DNA from: Erysipelotrichaceae bacterium
GTDB lineage: Bacteria > Bacillota_I > Bacilli_A > Erysipelotrichales > Erysipelotrichaceae
DNA length: 9,576 nucleotides
Assembly: GCA_017511325.1 (NCBI GenBank)
Contig: JAFWKS010000433.1
Coordinates: 1-9,576 of the forward strand
Direction of reading: 5' to 3'
The notes under the pieces were generated by a model. The model had not been told where the DNA came from. It saw only the letters and a program-made list of their open reading frames with translations, and did no database searches. Within the stretch, counting starts at the first letter, position 1, and each line of letters opens with the position of its first letter. The translations under genes and the position numbers were made by a program. Below are positions 1,665-9,576 of the stretch, piece after piece.

Positions 1665-3230
1665 TCATCCTTTCACAAGATCGAAATGTTTCAGTGTTCT
1701 ATATAATCCGTCATCAGATATGTCATGAGCTATATAATCCGCTTCATCTTTCAGTTCCTGTCGGCCATTGCCCATGGCTACACCCAGACCGGCAGCTTTT
1801 ATCATTTCGATGTCGTTGCCGCCATCACCAAAGGCACAGGTATCTTCCTTTTTAAAACCATATCCTTCCATCACCTTCAACATGGCACTTCCTTTCGTAT
1901 AACCGACCGGCGATACTTCACAAGCCAGGCCAAGATAACAGATCTCGCTGTCTTTGATTATTCCGGCGATCTCGTGCTGACCATCGAAATCGGTATAGAT
2001 CAGAAAATGGATGACTCTTTCCCCTTCATACTTCTTTACTTCGGGTATCATCTTATACAGACGATAGAAGAGATTTTCCTTATCTTCATCATGTCTGTTG
2101 AGATAACCTGTTCCGTTTCCTAAAACATATCTGTAAGTGAGTTTGTTTCTATCACAGTAATCGATGATGGTCTTGACAGTCTCATCATCGATATAGGTGA
2201 TCTTCGACTCGCCGTCGTTTATGATCTGAGCACCATTGGAAAGGATGATCGTATCCATCATCTGTTTTATCTCTTCAGAGATATTTATGCATTCCGCAAG
2301 AGATCTAGAGGTGTTAAGACACAGGATCCTGCCGTTTTCCTTTAGCTCTTTCAATGCTTTTAACGTGTTTTCCTGGATCTTTCCTTCCTTGTGATCGTAG
2401 AGAGTCGAGTCATAATCAAACACAAACATCTTTGGATCATATACATCTTCTTCGATTATTTTTAGATCTGTCAGGGCATCATAAAGCCCGCCGTCTTCAA
2501 TGGATTTGTCACAGATATAGTCTGCAGCCTTCTTGGTGTTGTCTTTGGCATCATCAGTGGCAATACCGATCCCGGCCATCGCCAGCATCACATCATCGTT
2601 GCTGCCATCACCGGCTGCCACGATCTCATCGGTCGTAAAAGAATACATCTGGCAGAATTTCAGAAGACCGAAGCTCTTGTCTACCAGCTTGGCACAGATG
2701 TTTCCGGAATTGCCCCAGCGGGATATCTGAATATCCGGATCGATTGTCTGGATGTGTTCGTATTCTTCATCCGAGACTTCGAAGAAAAACAGATTGGTGA
2801 TATCCTCATCTTCATATTCCTTGAACATGACCTTGCCTCCGGCCATCTTCAGATATTTGCCTTTATTCACATAATCCGGATTGCCCCAGTAGAAAAGGTC
2901 GCCATTGATATCGGTATAATCGTAGTTTATATGTCTTTCATTGAAATAATCCGTATATCTTTTGACCAGATCCTTGTCGATGGTATATGCCTTATAATAC
3001 TGGTCTTCGATCATTGTGATCGCGCCGGTACCCATGATCTTGCAGTCGATCCTGTTCCATAGTTCTTCTGGAAAATTGCCCATTTCCGCATTGACTCTGC
3101 TCGTGCAGATCCCGATCTTTATCCCTTTTTCTTTCAACTTATCCAAAGCCTTTAAAGTGGCTTTAGGGACTCTGTTTAAAGTATGGGAATAGAGTGTATC
3201 ATCAATGTCGAATAAGGCGCCTTTGATCAT
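1665..3230 (-). CDS. tandem fusion of two Cof-type (HAD-IIB) hydrolases
   Basis: The 521-residue protein is about twice the length of a usual Cof-type HAD phosphatase and contains two complete copies. Copy 1 (about 1-260) has motif I DIDDT (nucleophile D8, acid/base D10), motif II CTSR (42-45), motif III K185 and motif IV GDGSNDD (207-213). Copy 2 (about 267-521) has motif I DYDST (D272, D274), motif II NTSR (306-309), motif III K446 in YTKGSA and motif IV GDGGND (468-473). Both active sites therefore look intact, and both keep the type IIB cap region between motifs II and III. Such enzymes are cytoplasmic Mg2+-dependent phosphatases acting on sugar phosphates or similar small phosphoesters. 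The ribosome site (GGA, 4 nt from the ATG) is poor. It heads the HAD-dehydrogenase-GNAT unit, just downstream of a terminator. The substrate of each half is unknown. Confidence 0.9.
   Translation of the reverse strand: MIKGALFDIDDTLYSHTLNRVPKATLKALDKLKEKGIKIGICTSRVNAEMGNFPEELWNRIDCKIMGTGAITMIEDQYYKAYTIDKDLVKRYTDYFNERHINYDYTDINGDLFYWGNPDYVNKGKYLKMAGGKVMFKEYEDEDITNLFFFEVSDEEYEHIQTIDPDIQISRWGNSGNICAKLVDKSFGLLKFCQMYSFTTDEIVAAGDGSNDDVMLAMAGIGIATDDAKDNTKKAADYICDKSIEDGGLYDALTDLKIIEEDVYDPKMFVFDYDSTLYDHKEGKIQENTLKALKELKENGRILCLNTSRSLAECINISEEIKQMMDTIILSNGAQIINDGESKITYIDDETVKTIIDYCDRNKLTYRYVLGNGTGYLNRHDEDKENLFYRLYKMIPEVKKYEGERVIHFLIYTDFDGQHEIAGIIKDSEICYLGLACEVSPVGYTKGSAMLKVMEGYGFKKEDTCAFGDGGNDIEMIKAAGLGVAMGNGRQELKDEADYIAHDISDDGLYRTLKHFDLVKG
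1668..1673 (-). promoter_or_regulatory. ribosome binding site that decides the dehydrogenase start
   Basis: The minus strand reads AAAGGA here, five bases before an ATG at 1662-1660. The in-frame ATG two codons earlier (1668-1666) overlaps this site and has no usable spacing, so the downstream ATG is the better start. The site lies in the last codons and stop of the HAD gene. Confidence 0.6.
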
Positions 3231-3309: not shown

Positions 3310-4053
3310 CTATAAGTCGCTGCTTCCATTAGTCTTGTGCAGACTTACGGTAAACGATTGCATGTCACTGCGGATATTGGAGATGCTGTGAGCGATGACC
3401 TCGTTTCTTTCATTGTAGAAATCGCATTCCAGCAGAAGCACAGCTACGCCATCGGGAATATTCAGTGCTTTTCTTATCTTGGCTGAGCCTTTGATGATCC
3501 TTAAGGACTGAGACATCTTCTTAAGCCTGATGCCATAAAAGGAAAGGATATCTCTGAAAGTAAAGACTGATGAGTTGATCATATCCAAAGATGGCAGGAT
3601 CTTTTTTGGGATGAAGAATTCTTCTATCGATGTTTCGATATTGTTTATGGAGTGCATCTGACGTATATAGTAAATCTCGTCTTCCAGTTCAAGTCCAAAC
3701 AGATTGGCATACTTGTTTCCGGCCTGTCTTTCAGACTTCTGCAGTTCCTTGACTGAAAGTCTGGTATCGTTTCTTATTGCATCACCGACAAAGCCTGCAT
3801 GTTCCTCGATCGAAAGTTCGTTCTTGTTTCCGACGACAAAAACGCCCTTGCCCTGAACTCTTCTGAGAAGCCCTTCGTTTACCAGTGCATCGACAGCGTT
3901 TCTGATCGTTATTCTGTTGATGCCGAAGGATTCAGCCAGTTTGTTTTCTGAAGGGATCGCCGTACCAGGCATGTATTCACCATCTTCGATCTTGTTGCGG
4001 ATTATCTCTCTTAGCTGGAGATAGATCGGCATTTTATAATCTTCTCTAGGCAT
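3310..4053 (-). CDS. GntR-family transcriptional regulator, HutC/UTRA type (second of a pair)
   Basis: From the chosen start this is a 247-residue protein. The N-terminal winged helix-turn-helix spans about residues 8-70: it opens with a MPIYLQLREI segment, has IPSENKLAESFGI in the recognition region, and ends with the wing GKGVFV. The remaining part (about 85-240) has the length and pattern of a UTRA ligand-binding domain, which in HutC-type regulators binds a small effector such as a sugar phosphate and releases DNA. A longer reading from TTG at 4077 exists. I prefer ATG at 4053, because GGAAAG at 4064-4059 is 5 nt upstream and the ATG comes one base after the first regulator's stop. The two regulators form one transcript ended by the hairpin at 3254-3277. 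E. coli FrlR belongs to the same family, which fits the FrlC/FrlD-like neighbours. Confidence 0.88.
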   Translation of the reverse strand: MPREDYKMPIYLQLREIIRNKIEDGEYMPGTAIPSENKLAESFGINRITIRNAVDALVNEGLLRRVQGKGVFVVGNKNELSIEEHAGFVGDAIRNDTRLSVKELQKSERQAGNKYANLFGLELEDEIYYIRQMHSINNIETSIEEFFIPKKILPSLDMINSSVFTFRDILSFYGIRLKKMSQSLRIIKGSAKIRKALNIPDGVAVLLLECDFYNERNEVIAHSISNIRSDMQSFTVSLHKTNGSSDL

Positions 4054-4054
4054 A

Positions 4055-4774
4055 TCAGCTTTCCACCGTGCAGACAAAAGTGAACTTGTCCGATCTGATC
4101 AGTTGTTTATAGAACATGACTGTCTCTTTGTTTTGGTCCAGCGCCACACCTGACGCATAGAAAAGCGGTTCGCCGCTTTCAATGCCCAGCACTTCTGCTT
4201 CCGCATCTGTTGCGTAAGTGACGTTGATATGTTCAGTTCCGGATGTCTGGATCGTATTGTAGTAATTCTCAAAAACGGGATCCATTGCCGTATCTTCGTT
4301 ATAGTGATCAATAAAGCCATGATATCTTTCCGCATTTATATATGTCGTTTCGATCGTACAAGGGACACCATCGACTTTGCGGCATTTGATGATCTCATAG
4401 ACTTTCGTTCCCAGCATGACTCTGAGCTTTCTGGCGATCTGCTTGGTAGCTTCGATCTCTTCCATCCTGATGATCTGTTTACTGACCATATGACCCTGAT
4501 CGATCAGATCTCTTACCATCGCATCGACCCCGGCCATATCTCTTGGATAGCGCGGTTCCGCCACATAGACACCCTTGTTCATCACGCGGTAAAGGACACC
4601 GTTTTCTACCAGTTCATCTACAGCCTGCCTCAAGGTCGAATGGCTGACACCCCAAAGATCGCACAGATCTTTTTCACAAGGGATCCTGGTGTGCGGTTTA
4701 AGACGATTCACTTTGATGAAGTCTTCAAGTTTTTCGATCGCCTCCATGCCTGGAGGAGTCTTGTTGATAGCCAT
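4055..4774 (-). CDS. GntR-family transcriptional regulator, HutC/UTRA type (first of a pair)
   Basis: From ATG 4774 the protein is 239 residues. Its winged helix-turn-helix occupies about residues 8-71. It has RIPCEKDL (PCE where family members usually have PSE), then GVSHSTLRQAVDELVENG (about 42-59) as the recognition helix region, then the wing NKGVYV. A UTRA-type effector domain follows (about 82-227). A longer frame starting at TTG 4843 exists, but that start lies in the divergent gene's ribosome site and upstream of the best -10 for this strand, so it is unlikely to be transcribed from that promoter. ATG 4774 lacks a good Shine-Dalgarno, so the start is not certain. The gene is divergent from the isomerase at 4846 and probably regulates it and itself; it may also act on the right-hand catabolic operon. 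Confidence 0.82.
   Translation of the reverse strand: MAINKTPPGMEAIEKLEDFIKVNRLKPHTRIPCEKDLCDLWGVSHSTLRQAVDELVENGVLYRVMNKGVYVAEPRYPRDMAGVDAMVRDLIDQGHMVSKQIIRMEEIEATKQIARKLRVMLGTKVYEIIKCRKVDGVPCTIETTYINAERYHGFIDHYNEDTAMDPVFENYYNTIQTSGTEHINVTYATDAEAEVLGIESGEPLFYASGVALDQNKETVMFYKQLIRSDKFTFVCTVES
4059..4064 (-). promoter_or_regulatory. ribosome binding site that decides the second regulator's start
   Basis: GGAAAG on the minus strand lies 5 nt before ATG 4053-4051, inside the last codons of the first regulator. It supports the ATG over the upstream in-frame TTG at 4077. Confidence 0.5.
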
Positions 4775-4783
4775 GCGTTTTGC

Positions 4784-4813
4784 TTGTTTATAAGCCTTTC
4801 TTTCTTCTATTAT
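4784..4813 (+). promoter_or_regulatory. predicted promoter for the plus-strand isomerase
   Basis: A -35-like TTGTTT (4784-4789) and a -10-like TATTAT (4808-4813) are separated by 18 bases and would start transcription near 4820, about 25 bases before the isomerase ATG. A partial inverted repeat GCTT-N6-AAGC (4782-4795) covers the -35 and is a possible operator. Prediction by eye only. Confidence 0.45.
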
Positions 4814-4814
4814 A
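4809..4814 (-). promoter_or_regulatory. -10 element of the regulator-pair promoter
   Basis: The minus strand reads a perfect TATAAT at 4814-4809. No good -35 sits at standard spacing: TTGTGT at 4834-4829 is only 14 bases upstream. The predicted start near 4802 leaves ATG 4774 as the first usable start codon. This element overlaps the opposite-strand -10 at 4808-4813. Confidence 0.4.
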
Positions 4815-4832
4815 TTATTAACAGCAGTACAC

Positions 4833-4838
4833 AAGGAG
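4833..4838 (+). promoter_or_regulatory. strong ribosome binding site of the isomerase
   Basis: AAGGAG lies 7 bases before the ATG at 4846 and fixes that start codon. Confidence 0.75.
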
Positions 4839-4845
4839 AACAATA

Positions 4846-5691
4846 ATGAGAAAAATCACTTTAAATGACTTTGCGGTTATGACTCCATCTTATCAGCAGT
4901 ATTCATTAGATTATGTTTTGGATTCTCTGCAAAAGATCGGGATCAGAAACATCGATTTCTGGGGAGGAACTCCTCACTTCTGCCACCTTGATTATTCAGA
5001 TCCTGAAGCAGAAAGATTCCTGAAGGAGCTTCGCCAAAAAGCCGAAGACCGCGGGATGAGATTCGTCATTTATACGCCAGAGACTCTGGCCTATCCCTTC
5101 AGTATTGCCGATCCCAATAGCAGAACAGTTGAAAGGACCATCGACTTTTTCCGCACCAGCATGGACGATGCCCTGACTCTTGGCACCAACAGGCTCTTCA
5201 TCAATACCGGTACCGGCTTAAGAGATTATCCTGTTGAAAAGAGTATGGATATCTGCATCAAAGCGATCAGAAAGATCTGCGATGAAGCTGAAAGCAAAGG
5301 CGTCATTATGATGCTTGAACAGCTGCAGCCTTATGAAAGCAATCTCTGCACTGATATCAAAGGTATAAAGAAGATCATCGACAGCGTCGATTCACCTAAT
5401 CTGAAGATCTGTGTAGACCTGGTAGCCATGGATGTTGCCAGGGAGGATCTTGAGATGTATTATGATACCTTCGGCGAAGAAAAGATCGGCTTCATCCATT
5501 TCTCAGATTCTCATCACGAGATCTGCGGAACTGGTAATCTTCCGCTGAAGGAATATATCGAAACACTTGAGAAACATGATTATTCTTCGATCGTCGATCT
5601 TGAGATCAATGATTCAATCTACTGGTTCGATCCTCACGACGCTCATAAGCGAACTATCGACTATCTGAAGACATTTATTCCTGAACAGTGA
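4846..5691 (+). CDS. sugar-phosphate isomerase/epimerase (xylose isomerase-like TIM barrel), FrlC paralog
   Basis: The 281-residue protein belongs to the AP endonuclease 2/xylose isomerase-like TIM-barrel superfamily, whose members interconvert ketoses or epimerise them through a divalent metal. The four expected metal ligands can be placed: E158 (MMLEQL), D191 (CVDLV), H218 (IHFSD) and E253 (VDLEIN). It shares landmarks with the FrlC-like protein at 7032-7862: WGG-x-PH near residue 40, Y-x-PE-x-x-AYP near 76-84, and YESN at 163-166. It lacks the closer FrlC-specific match seen in that paralog, so it probably has a different substrate. It is the only plus-strand gene, alone between a divergent promoter region and a bidirectional terminator, so it is likely a single-gene transcript under one or both GntR regulators. 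Confidence 0.88.
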   Translation: MRKITLNDFAVMTPSYQQYSLDYVLDSLQKIGIRNIDFWGGTPHFCHLDYSDPEAERFLKELRQKAEDRGMRFVIYTPETLAYPFSIADPNSRTVERTIDFFRTSMDDALTLGTNRLFINTGTGLRDYPVEKSMDICIKAIRKICDEAESKGVIMMLEQLQPYESNLCTDIKGIKKIIDSVDSPNLKICVDLVAMDVAREDLEMYYDTFGEEKIGFIHFSDSHHEICGTGNLPLKEYIETLEKHDYSSIVDLEINDSIYWFDPHDAHKRTIDYLKTFIPEQ

Positions 5692-5697
5692 TCAACT

Positions 5698-5736
5698 AAA
5701 AAGGTCCGGCACAACTCACAAGAGCCAGACCTTTTT
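5698..5736. terminator. bidirectional intrinsic terminator between convergent units
   Basis: AAAAAGGTC pairs with GACCTTTTT, then after a C/A mismatch GGC (5708-5710) pairs with GCC (5724-5726), leaving a 13-base loop. Read on plus, the hairpin ends in TTTTT and closes the isomerase transcript 6 bases after its stop. Read on minus, it also ends in TTTTT and abuts the YjbQ stop codon, ending the right-hand operon. Confidence 0.88.
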
Positions 5737-6165
5737 CTATTCTCCTTGGATTATGATATTTATCGTTCTTTGTGAAGGACCGTCAAATTCACAAAACCAG
5801 ATATCCTGAGCAGAACCTCCGATCAGTTTGCCATCGATCAGCGGGAAGTGACAGTGATTGCCGGTTATCATGGCTTTGATGTGACCAGTAGGATTGCCGC
5901 CCGTGCTGCCATAATCTCTTAACATGTGGCAATGAGAATACGGCACATCTTCCGGTACAATCCTGGATAGAAAGACATCTATATCGCTTTGTAGGCACTC
6001 CAGCGATTCATTGACGGTTATACCTGTCGTCGTATGTCTTGTCTCAACTGTCACCATGCCATTTTTTATGCCGGAAGCAGCGATGATCTTTTTAACATCC
6101 TCAGTTATGATGAAATACTGATTGTACTTGTCAGTCATTATTTCCATAGGAATTATCTTTATCAT
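5737..6165 (-). CDS. YjbQ/UPF0047 family protein
   Basis: The 142-residue protein matches the YjbQ family (PF01894, secondary thiamine-phosphate synthase enzyme family) over its full length. Seen directly: H44-TTTGITVNE, a GGNPTGHIKA block (about 89-98, H95) and the C-terminal FCEFDGPSQR signature (about 124-133). E. coli YjbQ has a weak thiamin-phosphate synthase activity that can replace ThiE, but the physiological role of the family is not settled. The ATG shares one base with the TGA of the amidohydrolase gene, and AGGAG at 6176-6172 is 6 nt upstream, so both coupling and an independent ribosome site support this start. It is the last gene of the operon. Its position after FrlC-, FrlD- and BtpA-like genes suggests that it acts on a phosphorylated sugar-derived intermediate; this is inference. 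Confidence 0.88.
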   Translation of the reverse strand: MIKIIPMEIMTDKYNQYFIITEDVKKIIAASGIKNGMVTVETRHTTTGITVNESLECLQSDIDVFLSRIVPEDVPYSHCHMLRDYGSTGGNPTGHIKAMITGNHCHFPLIDGKLIGGSAQDIWFCEFDGPSQRTINIIIQGE

Positions 6166-7031
6166 CAGCTTCTCCTTTCCGGATCATAATGCATGAATTC
6201 GACCGCATTCTTGCCTTTAATAAGTTCAAGCGTGCTTTCTCTGAACCCCAGCTCCTCGATCGCCTTGGACATTCTTATCATCTCAAAACGCGGATCGTTC
6301 GTGCCAAACATCACCTGATGTCTTAAGCTTCTGTCGATCCAGGTGGCCGGTACATCTTTTGTCAGCATCTGGATATAGAATTCTTTGGCACTGTCAAAGT
6401 ACAAAGCTCCCGTATCGGCATAGACGTTTGGATACTTCAGCATCAGCATCGCCGTTTCCTTGCACCAAGGCCAGCCAAAATGCGCCAGGCAGATCCTGAG
6501 CCCGCTTCTTCTTTCTGCCAGTGCTTCAAAATCCAGGGGGTGGCAGTTTTTTGTCGTCGTGTGTGGTTCAAATGAAAGGCCTGAGTGAAACGTGATCGGT
6601 TCGTCATCTTTCTCACAGATGTCATACAAAGGATCCATTATCTTATCATCCGGATGAAAAGCTTGCCTTGAAGGATGAAGTTTAAGTCCTTTCAGATCGA
6701 AGACTGTAAAAGCTTCTTCAAGTTTTTCTAAAGCTTTCTCGTCATGAGGATCGACGCTCGCGAAACCGATAAAACGATCAGGCGCAAGGTCCACCAGTTT
6801 TTTTATTTCCTGATTGCTGACAAGGACATCGCCGTTCATGAAAGTCGAATAGTCTTCAGGCAGCAGCACACACATATCGATCCCGGCACAATTTAGCTTG
6901 TTGAAAAAGTGCTGCAGCGGTGCTGTACCGTTTTTATGGATACTGAGCTCATCATGCCTTAACGCTTCTTTCTTTTCGTCGCTGTTTATCGGCTCAAAGA
7001 AAGCGGGATGGACATGTACATCGATAACCAT
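6165..7031 (-). CDS. amidohydrolase-related metal-dependent hydrolase (PF04909 type)
   Basis: This 288-residue TIM-barrel protein is of the amidohydrolase_2 type, which includes lactonases, decarboxylases and amidases. Visible landmarks: the metal-binding HxH at the very N-terminus (H6, H8 in VIDVHVHP), GLKLHP at 115-120, H149 in FHSG, H184 in LAHFGWPW, and a late MFGTNDPRF block (241-249). In most relatives the last block reads G-T/S-D and the Asp is catalytic; here it reads G-T-N245-D246, so either the Asp is shifted by one or the site has changed. The position of HxH fixes the start. The ATG directly follows the TGA of the FrlC-like gene with no gap. A hydrolytic or lactone-opening step in the pathway is plausible, but the substrate is unknown. 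Confidence 0.85.
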   Translation of the reverse strand: MVIDVHVHPAFFEPINSDEKKEALRHDELSIHKNGTAPLQHFFNKLNCAGIDMCVLLPEDYSTFMNGDVLVSNQEIKKLVDLAPDRFIGFASVDPHDEKALEKLEEAFTVFDLKGLKLHPSRQAFHPDDKIMDPLYDICEKDDEPITFHSGLSFEPHTTTKNCHPLDFEALAERRSGLRICLAHFGWPWCKETAMLMLKYPNVYADTGALYFDSAKEFYIQMLTKDVPATWIDRSLRHQVMFGTNDPRFEMIRMSKAIEELGFRESTLELIKGKNAVEFMHYDPERRS

Positions 7032-7862
7032 TCAGAAACCTGCTTCTTCCATCATTGCCCTGACATTGTCGATCGCTCTGCGGGCATAGAAACGCGGTTC
7101 ATTTATATAACCGGTAACGAGTTCGATCGTAGCAGTGCGATCATAATCTATCTCTTTAAGTTCCTTGATCAGTTCTTTAAGCGGGATCATGCCTTCTCCT
7201 GGCATGACGTGATCATCGGAATCCTTGACGCCATCGATCAGATGCATGTGATACATCTTGTCGCCAAGTTTATCAAAATAGTCCATGATGCTTTCAAACT
7301 GTGTAAAAGGCGGTACTACATCGCACATGCCGACCAAGCATGGCGAATCGATGATCTTGAACAGCTTCTGCAGATCGTTCGCATTTTTTATGACGTTTGA
7401 TTCATAAACGGTCAAAGCCTCCATGACGATCTTCATGCCGATCTTCTCCGCATGATCTGTCAATTCCCTGACGCTTTTTGTCAGTCTGTTCCAGATCTCA
7501 TCATAGGTCGCACTATATCCGGCATGAGCTGCCGAGATCAGCGTATAATCTGCACCCATCTCCTTAGCCATATCAAAACAAAGTTTGAGATAATCGATCG
7601 CATCCTGCCGCATGGCTTCGGAACCGATCATGTAGTTGTAAGGATAAGCGTTGTGCTCTGGACAGTAACCACGGATCTCTATTTCGTACTTGTCTCTTAG
7701 TCTTTTGATCTCATCGATCTGACCGTCTTTTAGATCCGGTGCATAGGCATGAGGTCTGCCGCCCCAGAGTTCTATATAGTCATAGCCGAATCTTTTTGCA
7801 TCGGCGAAGATATGCTCAATTTCGTTACGCTGATAACCACTTGTGAACATTCCCAATTTCAT
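7032..7862 (-). CDS. frlC: FrlC-like sugar 3-epimerase (fructoselysine 3-epimerase family)
   Basis: The 276-residue protein closely follows E. coli FrlC, which interconverts fructoselysine and psicoselysine, in length and landmarks: MKLGMFTSGYQR at the N-terminus, ELWGGRPHAYAPDLK (31-45), YTLISAAHAGY (106-116), VYESNV (152-157), YFDKLGDK (195-202) and ELVTGYINEPRFYARRA (247-263). The metal ligands expected for the TIM-barrel epimerases are present at E148, D181, H207 and E247. This comparison is from memory of the family. The gene follows the FrlD-like kinase after 3 bases, with GAGGAG in the last kinase codons as ribosome site. The frl symbol marks homology. The true substrate may be another ketose or ketosamine, because the SIS-domain deglycase FrlB is missing from the window. 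Confidence 0.85.
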   Translation of the reverse strand: MKLGMFTSGYQRNEIEHIFADAKRFGYDYIELWGGRPHAYAPDLKDGQIDEIKRLRDKYEIEIRGYCPEHNAYPYNYMIGSEAMRQDAIDYLKLCFDMAKEMGADYTLISAAHAGYSATYDEIWNRLTKSVRELTDHAEKIGMKIVMEALTVYESNVIKNANDLQKLFKIIDSPCLVGMCDVVPPFTQFESIMDYFDKLGDKMYHMHLIDGVKDSDDHVMPGEGMIPLKELIKELKEIDYDRTATIELVTGYINEPRFYARRAIDNVRAMMEEAGF

Positions 7863-7865
7863 TTT

Positions 7866-8669
7866 TTATTTCTCCTCGTTTACCCACGGTTCAAATACCT
7901 CTACGACTCTGCTGGCAACTTTAGCGCCGGTACGCATCGCCTTGAGCACATCATCACCGTTCATGATGCTGTAAAGGAATCCGGCGATATAGGAATCGCC
8001 TGCTCCTACTGTGTTAACGACCTTTCTGGCCAGATAGATCGGCCCTACATGGTAACCTGCTTCATCATAGGAACGGCTCCCCTTTTCGCCAAATGTGGCG
8101 ACAGCAATCTTCATACCGCGATCGACTTTATCTTTCAGAAAGGCTTTGATGAATTCATCCTTTCCCTTGTGATAGGAATAGAAACCATAAGTCACGTATG
8201 GAAGAGTTTCTTCAACCAAAGGATGATCAAGTCTATCCGCATAATCGAAAGCGATCGGCACACCTTTTGCAGCGATCTTAGGCAATACCTTTTCAGCTTT
8301 GCCCCATAAAGCAGTATGGACGAGATCATGTTCGCAGGCAAAACGCACATCTTCATCATCGAATTCGATATTTTCGAGAACACCTTCGACATAATCGCCG
8401 TGGATCCTGTCATTGCCGTTCATATCCATATAGGTTATGGCTGTCTTTCCTTCTTTTACTTTAAGATGGGAGATATCGAGACCTTCCTTCTTAAGTGATT
8501 CGATCATCCACTTTCCATACTCATCAGAGCCGGTAGTTGAAATTATCGATACATCGGCACCTAGTTTCTTCAGATTTACGCCGGTATCAACGACATTCCC
8601 GGTCGGATATTTTCTGTCTAAACGTTCATACAGATCAATGCAGTTATCACCAATTTCAGCTACTCTCAT
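7866..8669 (-). CDS. frlD: FrlD-like PfkB-family sugar kinase (fructoselysine 6-kinase family)
   Basis: The 267-residue ribokinase/PfkB-fold kinase should phosphorylate a sugar or ketosamine using ATP. Its length and pattern match FrlD: IGDNCIDLY (6-14), DRIHGDYVEGV (87-97), ALWGKAE (120-126), and the PfkB signature NTVGAGDSYIAGF (219-231) with catalytic base D225. The substrate-side motif usually seen as GGN-x-x-N is TGNVVD (23-28) here, so the second Asn is replaced by D28. This may mean an altered substrate. The start is supported by GGGAG 7 nt upstream, and the gap to the BtpA-like gene is 12 nt. Together with the adjacent FrlC-like epimerase it forms the epimerise-then-phosphorylate pair of Amadori-product catabolism. 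Confidence 0.85.
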   Translation of the reverse strand: MRVAEIGDNCIDLYERLDRKYPTGNVVDTGVNLKKLGADVSIISTTGSDEYGKWMIESLKKEGLDISHLKVKEGKTAITYMDMNGNDRIHGDYVEGVLENIEFDDEDVRFACEHDLVHTALWGKAEKVLPKIAAKGVPIAFDYADRLDHPLVEETLPYVTYGFYSYHKGKDEFIKAFLKDKVDRGMKIAVATFGEKGSRSYDEAGYHVGPIYLARKVVNTVGAGDSYIAGFLYSIMNGDDVLKAMRTGAKVASRVVEVFEPWVNEEK

Positions 8670-8681
8670 AAATTTTCTCCC

Positions 8682-9491
8682 TTACAATTGTTCTCTGATC
8701 CTATAGACTTCAGTCATGAATTCCTTGACCCGGTCAACATCAACGTGGTTCTCCAGCTTGCCGTCATACTTGAATGTCGTCCCGACTACTGCCGCATCTG
8801 CATGTCTCAGTTTTCTTTCTATTGTATCAACTCTGCAACCGGTGTTGCAAAGGACAACGACATCAGGGTTGTATTCCTTTACAGAGATGATCAGTTCATC
8901 GTCGACATCCTGCCCTGCCGCATCAGCTGAGATGCATAAGCCATCAGGTGCAGCTTTGGCAATCGTCGTTCTGGCGATATCCTTCAATGGTCTCAGATCC
9001 AGGCTCTGATCTGATTCGGGATTGATGAAATACAGCATCTTAAGATCATCCATATGCAGGGCAAATTTTCTTCTGATGACCTCAGAGAAATCGTTGTTGT
9101 AGAAACCGCCATCTCCGACATAGACCCCGGAAAAAGTTCCGCGAACATAGTCAGCACCAACACCAGCTGCCAGTTCCAGGCATGCGATACCATCACTGAT
9201 TGCATCGACACCAAACGGGACCTTTATTAGCGGTTTAAGGTTGCCGATGACATATGCCATTGCGGCGACCGTATTTCTGTCCATGTTGCGCTGATACGGA
9301 AAACTGAATTCGTTGGAGAAGATGATGCCGTCGACTCCGCCTTCCTGCAAAGCGATCAGATCAGCTCTGGCATCTTCTACGACCTGATCCATAGTCATGC
9401 CGTACTTCCACATCGGATCTCCTGGTAAAGGATCCAGGTGCAACATGGCAATGATCGGTTTTTTAACTTTAAACATCTCTTCTGTCCACAT
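8682..9491 (-). CDS. BtpA/SgcQ family TIM-barrel protein
   Basis: The 269-residue protein (numbered here from an upstream ATG at 9497) matches the BtpA/SgcQ family (PF03437). The landmarks are IAMLHLDPLPGDP (16-28), GVDGIIFSNEF (54-64), VPFGVDAISDGIA (93-105), GADYVRG (114-120), CNTGCRVD (217-224) and VVGTTFKYDGKLENHVD (237-253). BtpA was named for a role in photosystem I accumulation in cyanobacteria. SgcQ is encoded in the E. coli sgc sugar operon, and a sugar-processing role fits this context better. AGGAG at 9504-9500 lies 8 nt before ATG 9491 but only 2 nt before ATG 9497, so I choose 9491. Reaction unknown; the fold suits an aldolase, epimerase or lyase step on a phosphorylated sugar. 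Confidence 0.85.
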   Translation of the reverse strand: MWTEEMFKVKKPIIAMLHLDPLPGDPMWKYGMTMDQVVEDARADLIALQEGGVDGIIFSNEFSFPYQRNMDRNTVAAMAYVIGNLKPLIKVPFGVDAISDGIACLELAAGVGADYVRGTFSGVYVGDGGFYNNDFSEVIRRKFALHMDDLKMLYFINPESDQSLDLRPLKDIARTTIAKAAPDGLCISADAAGQDVDDELIISVKEYNPDVVVLCNTGCRVDTIERKLRHADAAVVGTTFKYDGKLENHVDVDRVKEFMTEVYRIREQL

Positions 9492-9499
9492 ATTCATCT

Positions 9500-9504
9500 C
9501 TCCT
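9500..9504 (-). promoter_or_regulatory. ribosome binding site that decides the BtpA-like start
   Basis: AGGAG on the minus strand is 8 bases from ATG 9491-9489 and only 2 bases from ATG 9497-9495, which favours the shorter protein by two residues. Confidence 0.6.
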
Positions 9505-9520
9505 GCATATTTTTATATTT

Positions 9521-9576
9521 CTAATAATCAAACTGACGATAGTATCTTCTGACGCTAAGTGGATGCCTGAGGAAGA
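9521..9576 (-). CDS. possible 3' end of an upstream operon gene, cut by the right edge
   Basis: One minus-strand frame is open from the right edge to a TAG at 9523-9521 and encodes 17 residues (FLRHPLSVRRYYRQFDY). The stop lies 29 bases before the BtpA-like ATG at 9491, a normal intra-operon distance, with no terminator or clear promoter between. That makes an upstream co-transcribed gene likely, but the piece is too short to identify. Confidence 0.4.
   Translation of the reverse strand, partial: FLRHPLSVRRYYRQFDY

Follow-up and report, generated by a model that had tools for sequence, protein, structure and literature searches.

A probable ketosamine operon of the frl type with a GfrF-like SIS gene and an associated kinase, amidohydrolase and YjbQ unit in an Erysipelotrichaceae bacterium

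Five closely packed open reading frames (ORFs) lie on the minus strand of the stretch of DNA analysed here, 9576 nucleotides of contig JAFWKS010000433.1 from an Erysipelotrichaceae bacterium (hereafter the window), and are probably part of a gut-bacterial operon for the breakdown of sugar–amino acid compounds. Compounds of this kind form when food is heated; ketosamines are Amadori compounds, for example fructoselysine and its 3-epimer. In reading order, the ORFs encode a TIM-barrel protein of the BtpA/SgcQ family (8682–9497; PF03437), a PfkB kinase, here called kinase 1 (7866–8669; motif TGNVVD), that scores 372 bits on the curated FrlD model NF007321 (cut-off 247), a FrlC-type 3-epimerase (7032–7862; NF007360, 457 bits, cut-off 305), an Amidohydro_2 protein (6165–7031; PF04909, 86.5 bits) with Asn245 at the expected metal-site Asp, and a YjbQ/UPF0047 protein (5737–6165; TIGR00149, 101 bits, cut-off 68). 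The intergenic gaps are 12, 3, 0 and −1 bases, the last being a 1-base overlap of the amidohydrolase and yjbQ genes. The tight five-gene unit described in a first-pass annotation of this DNA is borne out by the ORFs, by their Pfam and NCBIfam matches and by this spacing.

That annotation had also stated that no SIS protein is encoded here, which does not hold. Minus-strand positions 9521–9574 translate to FLRHPLSVRRYYRQFDY followed by a stop codon, which lies 23 bases ahead of the btpA ATG. In related loci (L001, L005 and L007 among others), the SIS protein encoded ahead of btpA has exactly these 17 residues at its C-terminus, and the segment is read as the 3′ end (17 codons and the stop) of a gene for a GfrF-like SIS-domain deglycase, the remainder of which lies past the window edge. 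The apparent absence of a SIS gene arises because the window edge cuts it. Indeed, a full SIS gene stands directly before btpA in all ten close Erysipelotrichaceae loci that span this interval (L001 and L003–L011); the eleventh, L002, is cut at the contig start and does not include it. Above the SIS gene, the ten loci carry genes for an esterase, a second FrlD-like kinase (kinase 2) and an FrlA-like permease, the last truncated in L001 where the contig stops. A look to the right of the window for frlB and a transporter had been suggested; pursued through the relatives, it yielded a SIS gene and an FrlA-like permease gene, most of the SIS proteins not being FrlB.

The conservation of the operon was assessed in the best 80 of 148 related stretches, with one genome per species. 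All were found by means of the amidohydrolase, and the frequencies given here are conditional on that gene. By their titles, these loci come from Erysipelotrichaceae, many Clostridia and some Bacilli, Coriobacteriia and spirochaetes. The genes for kinase 1, FrlC, amidohydrolase and YjbQ are consecutive among the mapped genes in 64 of the 80. Presence of each gene was scored as a tblastn match above 55 bits on either strand in the 50 long loci, which extend more than 8 kb to the left and more than 7 kb to the right of the amidohydrolase gene. YjbQ was found in all 50, kinase 1 in 49, FrlC in 48 (absent from L035 and L075), kinase 2 in 47, the FrlA-like permease in 46, the SIS protein in 44, an Amidohydro_3 protein in 39, BtpA in 37, an FGGY kinase in 34, a second epimerase in 31 and the esterase in 25. 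Two GntR/UTRA regulators, for which the matches were often weak and, for regulator 1, often below 40% identity, were found in 47 (regulator 1) and 48 (regulator 2) of these loci. The six genomes whose long loci contain no SIS gene encode one elsewhere (546–654 bits). Both kinases occur together in 46 of the 50. Same-strand kinase 1 is not found upstream in L018, L063, L076 and L078, of which the last three are cut by a contig end. Close relatives have the genes in the order FrlA-like permease, kinase 2, esterase, SIS, BtpA, kinase 1, FrlC, amidohydrolase and YjbQ, with the two regulators and the second epimerase gene beside the operon. BtpA is the loosest of the five window genes: it immediately precedes kinase 1 in 11 Erysipelotrichaceae loci and in a small number of others and is apart or absent elsewhere. 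Two copies of the operon, L001 and L010, were seen on different contigs of one Erysipelotrichaceae metagenome-assembled genome (RGIG2514), reflecting either two loci or a mixed bin.

The SIS protein was characterised through that of L003, which matches 2A3N, which we take to be Salmonella GfrF, and 8GLR at 200 bits each, and 3EUA, deposited as a putative fructose-aminoacid-6-phosphate deglycase, at 98 bits. The L003 protein shares 53% identity with the second SIS protein of a phosphotransferase system (PTS) operon on an Enterococcus faecium plasmid, an operon labelled gfr-like here from its gene order. The assignment to the GfrF type follows the nearest matches, 2A3N and 8GLR, but the surrounding synteny is frl-like and not gfr-like. 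A SIS gene of the E. coli FrlB type is present instead in four loci (L025, L032, L033 and L035); the protein of L032, the only one of the four scanned, passes the FrlB model at 475 bits (cut-off 430). Alignments were restricted to proteins within set length limits, which excluded two SIS ORFs whose boundaries had been mis-called, those of L033 and L074. The FrlA-like permeases of the relatives are 52%–57% identical to E. coli FrlA.

The two kinases differ in their relation to E. coli FrlD, to which kinase 1 of the window is 35% identical and kinase 2 of seven relatives 41%–46%. A maximum-likelihood tree was built from 58 selected rows (23 of 73 for kinase 1, 21 of 59 for kinase 2, 13 others and E. 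coli FrlD), and in it kinase 1 forms a single clade (K1) of 28 rows with support of 100/99. This clade takes in five kinases whose genes immediately precede that of the amidohydrolase in a second, diverged operon family, described below. E. coli FrlD is a long branch placed weakly beside the K1 clade (89/22). The sugar-site motif separates the groups: Asp is found in 28/28 K1-clade rows versus Asn in 30/30 others, including E. coli FrlD. In the larger set Asp is present in all 73 kinase 1 rows, L036 reading AGNVVD and still retaining it; one kinase 2 row of that set, L004, is a weak match to another kinase. The window kinase passes the FrlD model, yet it groups apart and carries Asp in place of Asn in the motif. 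Plain orthology with FrlD is doubted for this protein in view of its low identity, clade and motif.

In the window amidohydrolase, H6, H8, H149 and H184 are present and Asn245 occupies the expected Asp position; these positions are presumed to be those of the metal site. Across 80 rows, the window included, H6 is kept in 74, H8 in 71, H149 in 77 and H184 in 69. The Asp position is D in only 26 rows and N in 45; with the histidines also variable, the textbook mechanism of hydrolysis is doubtful. The predicted fold is nearest to 3IRS, LigJ and ACMSD, at 14%–20% identity. Over 77 rows, no variation is seen at the YjbQ residues H44, C57, H78, H95, E126 and D128. A protein of 422 residues, P0110, carries both PF04909 and PF01894 and is an amidohydrolase–YjbQ fusion, which supports a joint function of the two. 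Of 14 control genomes, 10 also gave a YjbQ match above the cut-off; in E. coli the function of the protein is described as unknown (PMC7954711). BtpA passes TIGR00259 (225 bits, cut-off 153) and fails the photosystem I biogenesis model NF045918 (131 bits, cut-off 400). Its predicted structure is a TIM barrel with many TIM-barrel matches at tied Z, none of which indicates a function.

Genome-wide co-occurrence was examined at the level of orders because a class-wide sample (291 genomes, E up to 1e-60) gave one FrlC match besides the centre genome. Some of the order-level genomes also supplied the 80 loci, and the added information lies in the genomes with neither gene. Among 392 Lachnospirales genomes, the centre included, the six with FrlC above 450 bits are also the six with the amidohydrolase above 480 bits; the genes are adjacent in five and on separate contigs in G662. 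Among 315 Erysipelotrichales genomes both occur in the identical 11 (12 copies, centre included), adjacent by coordinates in 12/12. The conservation on which the first-pass annotation had made its proposal depend is borne out by these shared genomes. Five other Lachnospirales genomes have FrlC at 335–351 bits, over the cut-off, in SIS–FrlC–kinase 2 operons with no close amidohydrolase. Kinase 1, amidohydrolase and YjbQ are not found near these small operons; one of the genomes, G419, has a diverged amidohydrolase (338 bits) on a separate contig. The existence of such operons allows a core to be distinguished from an accessory unit. The remaining Lachnospirales FrlC matches, below the cut-off, are a truncated copy in G607 and second copies in G003, G655 and G672. 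In Erysipelotrichales, FrlC is found without the amidohydrolase in G781 (352 bits) and G862 (truncated FrlC), and a diverged amidohydrolase alone (304–356 bits) in G890 and G905.

The unit recurs in the second operon family, represented by seven loci picked from diverged amidohydrolase matches and further YjbQ copies, which serve as examples and not as a sample. Kinase 1 and YjbQ were matched in 7/7, SIS in 6/7 and a second kinase in 4/7. L100, L115 and L131 read epimerase, epimerase, SIS, kinase, kinase 1, amidohydrolase and YjbQ, while in L114 the SIS and kinase genes are followed by another ORF and then by kinase 1, amidohydrolase, YjbQ and epimerase. L132 and L133 carry kinase 1 followed by the amidohydrolase and YjbQ. 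L101 encodes the amidohydrolase and YjbQ along with three SIS proteins; its kinase 1 match is partial and lies on the other strand at the contig edge. This family suggests that the genes for kinase 1, the amidohydrolase and YjbQ accompany the deglycation core as a unit and can be separated from it. Of the five window families, for whose co-occurrence a search had been proposed, these three recur together in the second family; BtpA is present in 37 of the 50 long loci and often lies apart from kinase 1. Seven regions around further YjbQ copies included two with all three genes of the unit (L114 and L115). By ORF comparison, neither kinase 1 nor the amidohydrolase lies beside YjbQ in L116, L117, L118 and L120, and only a weak FrlD-like match does so in L119, which indicates that YjbQ also occurs in other settings.

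Related genes were observed on two E. faecium plasmids. On plasmid 2 of strain DO (L082; NC_017962.1, 15783–44841), an Amidohydro_3-like protein, a shortened amidohydrolase, YjbQ, an FrlA-like permease, GntR, FrlD, GntR and SIS are the encoded parts of the same system, which adjoins a β-galactosidase gene and lies near aminoglycoside-resistance genes; the β-galactosidase suggests lactulosyl-lysine as a possible source. On plasmid pC4-1-2 (L083), an FrlD–SIS pair is flanked by a cellobiose-type PTS gene and a 6-phospho-β-glucosidase gene, neighbours that hint at the import of a glycosylated ketosamine; its SIS protein and that of L003 share 65% identity.

Downstream of yjbQ in the window, a hairpin at 5698–5736 on the minus strand (−20.2 kcal/mol, z −5.1, T run in the 3′ arm) is the probable rho-independent terminator of the operon; it is absent from the output of the consensus terminator scan. 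The second epimerase-like protein (AP_endonuc_2; 4846–5691, plus strand), 24% identical to E. coli FrlC, is encoded convergently. GntR/UTRA regulators 1 (4055–4843) and 2 (3310–4077) are on the minus strand. Downstream of both GntR genes, at 1665–3230, a protein of 521 residues with two tandem Cof-type HAD phosphatase domains is encoded.

Taken together, it is very likely that the window holds the downstream half of an frl-type ketosamine operon with a GfrF-like SIS protein, in which kinase 2 and the SIS protein would carry out deglycation and kinase 1, amidohydrolase and YjbQ would be accessory. Judging from the families, the FrlA-like permease would import the ketosamine, FrlC would interconvert 3-epimers, kinase 2 would phosphorylate at C6, and the GfrF-like SIS protein would split the product into hexose 6-phosphate and amino acid. 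More tentatively, kinase 1, amidohydrolase and YjbQ may act in series on a related ketosamine, or on an off-pathway phosphorylated form that the SIS protein cannot process. Several points weigh against this assignment. The remaining genes of the operon were read in relatives, which share 73%–96% identity with the window in the five proteins, and not on the window's own contig. The SIS protein of L003 reaches 60 bits on the FrlB model and that of L027 85 bits, both below the cut-off of 430, and the permease of L003, encoded outside the window, reaches 512 bits on the FrlA model, below the cut-off of 800. Three further genomes with cut loci gave two SIS matches and none in G688. PMC5270733 and PMC12675984 link GfrE with glucoselysine and GfrF with fructoselysine, and a figure legend in the latter gives the reverse assignment for Salmonella.

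The view of the first-pass annotation, that the whole operon works without a deglycase, finds in its favour that the 9576 bases contain no complete SIS gene. Unless the upstream gene is broken in this organism, it is highly improbable, and it was rejected given the SIS tail in the window and the SIS genes in the relatives' loci or elsewhere in their genomes; a deglycase-like SIS gene lies directly upstream, the position at which an frlB-type gene was to have counted against that view, although the curated model places the protein outside FrlB and its nearest matches make it GfrF-like. What remains of the proposal, that a kinase product is handled by families of uncertain chemistry, holds as a possible accessory branch beside probable ordinary deglycation and not as the main route. 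It is rather improbable that the substrate is not a simple Amadori compound and is instead a related amino-sugar conjugate such as a Heyns compound, a glycated peptide, an opine-like conjugate or lactulosyl-lysine. The proximity of the SIS protein to 2A3N (the presumed Salmonella GfrF) and not to FrlB, the plasmid SIS/FrlD-like pairs near β-galactosidase or between cellobiose-type PTS and 6-phospho-β-glucosidase genes, and the extra Amidohydro_3 and esterase genes would fit such a substrate, but the FrlC and FrlA-like proteins indicate fructoselysine or psicoselysine.

Within the very likely deglycation operon, two readings of the kinase 1, amidohydrolase and YjbQ unit lead. Tentatively, it may be a second catabolic branch beside kinase 2 and SIS, in which kinase 1 acts on another ketosamine or at another position and the amidohydrolase and YjbQ process its product in series. 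The pairing of both kinases in nearly all long loci, the well-supported K1 clade with its strict Asp/Asn difference, the recurrence of the unit in the second family, mostly with its own SIS and in 4/7 loci with a second kinase, and the presence of kinase 2 in the small operons that lack the unit all argue for such a branch. The metal site of the amidohydrolase, which is not conserved, speaks against simple hydrolysis, however, and L018 has the amidohydrolase and YjbQ without kinase 1 in the locus. A more specific form is somewhat doubtful: catabolism would be fully two-branched, kinase 2 and SIS carrying out the known cleavage while the product of kinase 1 is converted, without SIS, by an amidohydrolase-fold protein with a relaxed metal site together with YjbQ. 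Alternatively, and less probably than either, the three proteins might clear toxic or dead-end ketosamine by-products and not feed carbon into metabolism. In one study, fructose-asparagine is reported to be bacteriostatic to a Salmonella fraB mutant (PMC4941530), which suggests that phosphorylated ketosamines may be harmful; a dedicated kinase would be odd in a clearance system, though.

If the two-branch reading is true, a branch of the YjbQ/UPF0047 family gains a physiological role, and K1 genes, despite passing the frlD model, would not be markers of fructoselysine deglycation. A search for fructoselysine degraders in gut metagenomes took frlD as a query gene (PMC9749803). Both K1 kinases scanned pass the curated FrlD model although their clade is separate, and frlD-based counts may therefore combine two functions. 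The conserved unit of kinase 1, amidohydrolase and YjbQ is also a concrete setting for testing YjbQ.

The locus is probably a ketosamine operon of the frl/gfr type with an accessory unit; no description of an frl-type gene set bearing kinase 1, amidohydrolase and YjbQ was found in searches of open-access literature. The Intestinimonas fructoselysine cluster is reported to comprise an ABC transporter, a kinase and a deglycase (PMC4697335). The operon resembles E. coli frlABCD–frlR, which acts on fructoselysine and psicoselysine, in its FrlC (54% identity, window), its FrlA-like permease and kinase 2 (52%–57% and 41%–46%, relatives) and its GntR/UTRA regulator 1 (28% to FrlR). It differs in having two FrlD-like kinases and, in most loci, a GfrF-like SIS protein in place of the FrlB type; the amidohydrolase, YjbQ, BtpA, second epimerase and second regulator also set it apart from the annotated E. 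coli frl operon. The 53% identity of its SIS protein to the second SIS protein of the gfr-like E. faecium operon recalls Salmonella and Enterococcus gfrABCDEF (fructoselysine/glucoselysine PTS), which uses a mannose-family PTS, whereas an APC-type permease and kinases are found here. The E. coli sgc cluster contains SgcQ/BtpA with SgcE. Analogous to sgc, BtpA lies near an FGGY kinase and a relative of ribulose-phosphate 3-epimerase in L012, L018, L034 and L050; unlike in sgc, it belongs here to an frl-type locus. The UPF0047/YjbQ family is named for thiamine phosphate synthase activity, and its model TIGR00149 is passed here; what differs is that the YjbQ protein of the present operon sits with ketosamine genes.

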